Assembly (NCBI RefSeq): GCF_025751495.1
Contig: NZ_JAOWKZ010000001.1
Coordinates: forward strand, 379,920-443,919
DNA: 64,000 bases
From: Albidovulum litorale
GTDB taxonomy: Bacteria; Pseudomonadota; Alphaproteobacteria; Rhodobacterales; Rhodobacteraceae
Reading direction: 5' to 3'
In this document: in pieces, positions 18,006 to 48,686 of the stretch
Layout: each line of letters starts with the position of its first letter
How positions within the stretch are numbered: position 1 is the stretch's first letter
The notes under the pieces: generated by a model
What the model saw: only the letters and a program-made list of their open reading frames with translations
Told to the model about the DNA's origin: nothing
Databases searched by the model: none
Made by a program: the position numbers and the translations under genes

Positions 18006-18020
18006 GAACATATGACGAAC
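18006..18020 (-). promoter_or_regulatory. LexA (SOS) box of uvrA
   Basis: GTTC-GTCATAT-GTTC on the minus strand. It exactly fits GTTC-N7-GTTC, the direct-repeat LexA target established for Rhodobacter and other alphaproteobacteria, for which uvrA is a known target. It lies 66-80 nt before the uvrA start. Confidence 0.8.
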
Positions 18021-47783: not shown

Positions 47784-48626
47784 TCAAAGCTGCCCGCCAC
47801 CCCGTTTCTGCGACATCATCGCCGCCACCTCCGCATCCGGCACCGCATCGGAAGCATAGGTGAATGTGCCCGCCTCCAGCACCTCCCTGCCTGCCCGTAT
47901 CAGCGCGCCGAGCGCGGCACGGGCAAAAGAGCCACCGGTGCTGATGCGCCTGACCCCGGCCCCGGAGAGATCGGCGACCGTATGGTTCGGCCCCGACAGG
48001 CCCATCACGAAATTCACCGGCCTGTCCACCTCTCGGCATACCGTTCGGATCGCTTCCAGATCAGGCAGCCCCGGCGCATAGAGCACATCCGCCCCTGCCT
48101 CGGCGAAGGCCTGCAGGCGGGCAATCGTATCGTTCAGGTCGGGCCGTCCGTAAAGGAAATTCTCAGCGCGGGCGGTCAGCAGGAAAGACCGCCCCCGCGC
48201 GGCCTCAACCGCCGCCCTGATCCGGTCGACCGCCAGCCCGAAAGGGTGAATCGGATCATCGGGATCGCCCGTGGCATCCTCGATCGCACCGCCGACAAGG
48301 CCCCGCTCAGCCGCCATGATCACGGTTTCGGCCACCGTCTCGGGCGCGGGTCCGAAACCGTCCTCAAGATCGACGCTGACCGGCAGGTCGGTGGCGGCCG
48401 CGATGGCAGCGGCATTGGTCAGCACCTCATCGCGGGAGAGTGCGGCAAAGGAATCCCGCTTGCCGACCGAAAAGGCATATCCCGCGCTGGTGGTTGCAAT
48501 CGCCTCGTATCCCAAAGCGGTCAAGATCATCGCAGACCCGGCATCCCAGGCATTGGGCATCACGAAGGCCCCTGCCCGATCATGCATTGCCCGGAACCTG
48601 TCGAATTTGACCTTTCGGACCGCCAT
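47784..48626 (-). CDS. Isocitrate lyase/PEP mutase family protein
   Basis: A 280-residue TIM-barrel protein of the isocitrate lyase/phosphoenolpyruvate mutase superfamily. It has PNAWDAGSAMILTALGYEAIATTSAGYA, the metal-binding VDLEDGFG and the ARAENFLYG segment. Members include oxaloacetate decarboxylases and C-C lyases; the reaction here cannot be fixed. The ATG at 48626 has GGAG 7 nt upstream; a GTG one codon earlier is possible. Its promoter carries a LexA-type box over the -10, which suggests DNA-damage induction. Confidence 0.87.
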   Translation of the reverse strand: MAVRKVKFDRFRAMHDRAGAFVMPNAWDAGSAMILTALGYEAIATTSAGYAFSVGKRDSFAALSRDEVLTNAAAIAAATDLPVSVDLEDGFGPAPETVAETVIMAAERGLVGGAIEDATGDPDDPIHPFGLAVDRIRAAVEAARGRSFLLTARAENFLYGRPDLNDTIARLQAFAEAGADVLYAPGLPDLEAIRTVCREVDRPVNFVMGLSGPNHTVADLSGAGVRRISTGGSFARAALGALIRAGREVLEAGTFTYASDAVPDAEVAAMMSQKRGGGQL

Positions 48627-48653
48627 CACGCCACTCCCTGATTACCAAAACAA

Positions 48654-48686
48654 GAACATAATAGGAACACTTTCATCGCACGGCAA
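48654..48686 (-). promoter_or_regulatory. Promoter with overlapping LexA (SOS) box
   Basis: On the minus strand: -35 TTGCCG (48686-48681), 17-nt spacer, -10 TATTAT (48663-48658). GTTC-CTATTAT-GTTC (48668-48654) exactly fits the alphaproteobacterial GTTC-N7-GTTC box and covers the -10. It lies 28-42 nt before the isocitrate lyase-like start and also faces the divergent SDR gene. Confidence 0.65.

Follow-up and report, generated by a model that had tools for sequence, protein, structure and literature searches.

When LexA sits on a box that covers the −10 element of a promoter, it blocks transcription until the repressor is cleaved under the stimulation of RecA. In Alphaproteobacteria, the operator type of the LexA regulon is the direct repeat GTTC-N7-GTTC, in a regulon that includes lexA itself, recA, uvrA and imuA-imuB-dnaE2 (PMC3323433, PMC12700426), and the conserved core of this SOS response is made up of genes for repair and mutagenesis (PMC3323433). 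The site described here has the same repeat, placed in front of a gene of the PEP mutase/isocitrate lyase superfamily. "The window" is the whole 64-kb stretch of DNA that was analysed, and four of its features carry the argument:

48654-48668, minus strand: LexA-type box GTTCCTATTATGTTC, direct repeat GTTC-N7-GTTC (exact match, conservation and recA/lexA matrix)
48658-48686, minus strand: predicted sigma-70-like promoter TTGCCG-17-TATTAT (consensus match only)
47784-48629, minus strand: PF13714 PEP mutase/isocitrate lyase superfamily gene, predicted LexA target
18006-18020, minus strand: second box GTTCGTCATATGTTC, upstream of uvrA, the internal reference for the motif

The first-pass annotation had read an exact GTTC-N7-GTTC over the −10 of a TTGCCG-N17-TATTAT promoter, 28–42 nt before an isocitrate lyase/PEP mutase-like gene, and these points were borne out: the exact repeat lies at its given position, the promoter match runs from 48686 to 48658 with its −10 TATTAT inside GTTCCTATTATGTTC, and the gene matches the PF13714 PEP_mutase profile with 244 bits against a curated cut-off of 31.5 (E=1.9e-72). 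Its start is either the ATG at 48626 or the GTG one codon upstream at 48629, and the box spans −28 to −42 relative to the ATG, which agrees with the annotated spacing. The promoter pattern itself was found once vs. 0.2 times expected in shuffles.

We consider it probable, at roughly 85%, that 48654-48668 is a LexA operator repressing a one-gene unit, such that damage would induce the PEP mutase/isocitrate lyase-fold enzyme. In undamaged cells, LexA on the direct repeat would cover the −10 and keep this unit low, and upon DNA damage the activated RecA would lead LexA to cleave itself, allowing the enzyme to be made. The latter would act on a metabolite and not on DNA, and might, speculatively, adjust or clear a small 2-oxo or 2-hydroxy acid during the damage. 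We infer the repression and induction of the PF13714 gene from the established knowledge of LexA.

The exact motif alone is weak evidence because the genome-wide search proposed by the first-pass annotation returned 146 exact sites in 4.05 Mb (73 for the reversed pattern), and for that number of sites we rejected the exact motif as a sufficient proof. With a motif this common, chance could have dropped one of the 146 sites on this promoter. The window holds eight exact sites vs. 2.1 expected and, on partial examination, 48654-48668 and 18006-18020 precede gene starts, and others fall within reading frames; GTTCGTCATATGTTC lies about 65–80 nt 5′ of uvrA, which is one of the usual SOS targets. 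When a T is required before the second GTTC, 31 genome sites are left vs. 11 for the control pattern, and this set includes sites 5′ of lexA, recA, uvrA, imuA, imuB, a PA0069-family radical SAM gene and the PF13714 gene. The significance of the site at 48654-48668 rests on its position and its conservation.

The known regulon can be recognized in the same genome, where recA, uvrA, imuA and imuB bear the GTTC-N7-GTTC box and the only lexA match has two overlapping boxes upstream; as positive controls across genomes, the exact box was found at recA in 27 of 28 and at lexA also in 27 of 28. Three other sites of this genome were recorded along the way. Box GTTCGCTAAATGTTC (site 1501-1515 of L029; C3:610655) stands about 12 nt 5′ of the PA0069-family radical SAM gene, a candidate LexA target, and box GTTCTTATATTGTTC (site 1363-1377 of L275; C10:251362) about 30 nt 5′ of an open frame that by eye has the look of an MT-A70-type methyltransferase and has no NCBIfam match. 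A putative box, GTTCCAATTCTGTTC (site 1501-1515 of L010; C3:241971), is found where a pmtA-like phospholipid N-methyltransferase gene begins.

Orthologues were gathered from named genomes, from family sets (149 and 394 genomes), a class set (385 genomes), a genus set (22) and plasmids, with at least 50% identity required for the set of 71. In this set, 21 of the 71 carry the exact box no farther than 120 nt from the start, where 0.3–1 would be expected; the binomial p, calculated without regard to shared descent, falls between 1e-21 and 1e-32. The first 43 loci had given 14 exact boxes vs. 0.13 expected from shuffled upstreams, together with a further five having 7 of the 8 box positions, at −58 to −60 and on the same strand; the class set adds seven exact boxes and the named Rhizobiales plasmids add five. 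Within the class set, an exact box is seen in families f33, f37, f41, f107 and f123, and also in the window's own f1. Overall, the box-bearing orthologues come from six or more families of Alphaproteobacteria, with Sinorhizobium, Phyllobacterium and Agrobacterium among the carriers, and these are the named examples:

Sinorhizobium meliloti Ak57 pSymB: exact box at −60
Phyllobacterium zundukense: exact box at −59
S. fredii CCBAU 25509: exact box at −54
S. fredii NGR234: exact box at −53
Agrobacterium vitis Ti plasmid: exact box at −49

Among the four same-genus relatives, the exact box is present in two, L277 (95% identical, with a box identical to that of the window) and L279 (with a different spacer), and no box was found upstream of the orthologue in L278 and L280. 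Conservation before orthologues, the check that the first-pass annotation had set for its own claim, thus came out in part: the exact box recurs in the numbers given above, and the majority of orthologues are without it. In genome G108, there are two orthologue copies (L117 and L178), each preceded at −60 by the near-box GTTCCTGTTTTGTTT.

A weight matrix built solely from 56 boxes of recA and lexA in these genomes gives the orthologue upstreams far higher scores than random windows from the same loci (p=1.4e-13, Mann-Whitney, ignoring shared descent). Of 82 orthologues, 22 are above the 99.9th percentile of the control windows and 32 above the 99th, and the site at 48654-48668 falls in the interval between these two percentiles. 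The upstreams of the 45%-identical paralogues were not separated from random windows by this matrix (p=0.94), and none of them exceeded the 99.9th percentile. Chance placement, which the commonness of the motif and the box-less majority of orthologues would favour, is very unlikely in view of this silence of the paralogues and of the 21 exact boxes spread over several families and different neighbourhoods. A LexA operator is the reading that we keep.

When 20 sites are lined up by their boxes, the flanks average 0.22 bits per column, near noise for 20 sequences, and the spacer, which was not used in the selection, rises to 1.71 bits at the final base. On a tree of 97 proteins, the exact box needs 13 changes vs. 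20.1 with shuffled labels (0 of 500 shuffles as low; the bootstrap was unsettled), and it clusters on the tree in the way expected of an inherited trait, with repeated gain or loss.

The site might also serve a different regulator whose motif is similar, for instance a LexA-like repressor responding to another stress, given that LexA-like proteins without the cleavage residues exist in Alphaproteobacteria, such as RogA (PMC9632790), and that some genomes hold partial extra LexA-like matches. This is very unlikely, since the window's genome has a single LexA match and the box agrees with a matrix for which recA and lexA boxes were the sole source. As the box is kept before many orthologues and matches in type the boxes of lexA and recA in those genomes, the original call of a LexA-type box on this promoter holds, and judging from these comparisons LexA very probably controls the single lyase-fold gene here and in many other Alphaproteobacteria. 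Boxes of other types did not appear in other groups: the E. coli-type CTGT-N8-ACAG was found within 1500 nt in none of 76 loci of Pseudomonas and other homologues, nor in a further homologue set, and the Gram-positive GAAC-N4-GTTC had no exact match before the actinobacterial homologues.

The extent of the controlled unit was judged from the neighbours. The box could govern a larger unit, including the downstream 2OG-Fe(II) oxygenase and class V aminotransferase genes or the divergent SDR gene, all of which are adjacent, and no terminator-like site was found before the oxygenase, making read-through into it possible. The gap between the PF13714 gene and the oxygenase is, however, about 130 nt long and contains a weak promoter-like site, and in the fetched loci the 95%-identical L277 was the sole one with matches to the oxygenase and aminotransferase, and the SDR was matched only in L277 and L278, the latter (76% identity) keeping the SDR neighbour and lacking the box. 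Elsewhere, box-bearing orthologues have unrelated neighbours; they vary between loci in the annotated Rhizobiales plasmids, and no neighbour-gene family recurs widely across loci (largest cluster, 5 of 87). Because the neighbours differ in this way, we take the PF13714 gene to be the unit that moves together with the box, and a larger unit is very unlikely. The co-induction of oxygenase and aminotransferase that the first-pass annotation had suggested, like the control of the divergent SDR faced by the box, therefore found no support in the neighbour comparison, and neither an operon of this kind nor a functional link through widespread conserved neighbours was retained. In Pseudomonas, the homologue sits after a conserved gene, and in Streptomyces plasmids it adjoins a 3-oxoacyl-ACP synthase gene. 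The box-less orthologues L118, L119 and L171 lie directly downstream of related MerR-family genes, the copy tested, that of L119, being SoxR, which hints at redox control in place of damage control at these three loci.

Regarding the enzyme, its AlphaFold2 model is confident (pLDDT 93.5) and has a TIM-barrel fold, and the fold search placed nearest to it the structure 4lsb, a putative lyase/mutase of Burkholderia cenocepacia (TM-score 0.94, about 52% identity in the structural alignment), whose Burkholderia homologues, in those examined, carry no LexA-type box. Next came DFA0005 (2ze3), an ICL/PEPM superfamily member bound to alpha-ketoglutarate that shares the fold and the conserved acidic metal-site motif D-x-E, although with only about 35% identity. 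Two activities did not fit: methylisocitrate/isocitrate lyase, because the KRCGH-type catalytic cysteine loop is absent in the alignment to 9hra and the prpB score is 83.9 bits vs. a cut-off of 354.4, and the PEP mutase of phosphonate synthesis, with 46.2 bits for TIGR02320 vs. an equivalog cut-off of 319.55. The invariant residues D86, E116, D117 and R153 would fit a metal-dependent enzyme for a small carboxylic acid, and by analogy the protein is most likely a metal-dependent C–C bond lyase, decarboxylase or hydrolase of a small 2-oxo or 2-hydroxy acid, the reaction being speculative. Oxaloacetate decarboxylation is one candidate, with a precedent in PA4872 (3b8i) (PMC8100219), which is of the same superfamily but distant (E=2.9e-10), and one Sinorhizobium meliloti homologue is annotated as an oxaloacetate decarboxylase.

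In the literature searched, no report of this enzyme family among LexA targets turned up, and a prior mention is possible. The results suggest a metabolic enzyme, instead of a DNA-repair protein, as a recurrent part of the alphaproteobacterial damage response, and an operator kept in several families despite a fully changed neighbourhood points to an unnamed physiological need during DNA damage. More tentatively, and at something less than even odds, this small-acid enzyme may be a recurrent, overlooked SOS member across Alphaproteobacteria that clears or remodels a metabolite building up under DNA damage, so that LexA would be tied directly to central carbon metabolism or to the detoxification of metabolites.

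We judge that the PF13714 gene, by its predicted operator, joins the known alphaproteobacterial LexA regulon as a new member with a presumed metabolic role. With that regulon it shares the operator motif GTTC-N7-GTTC and its location near the gene start, as in the lexA, recA, uvrA, imuA and imuB of its own genome, whereas it differs in that the target is a metabolic-fold enzyme and not a repair or mutagenesis gene, and in that the box accompanies a part of the orthologues only.
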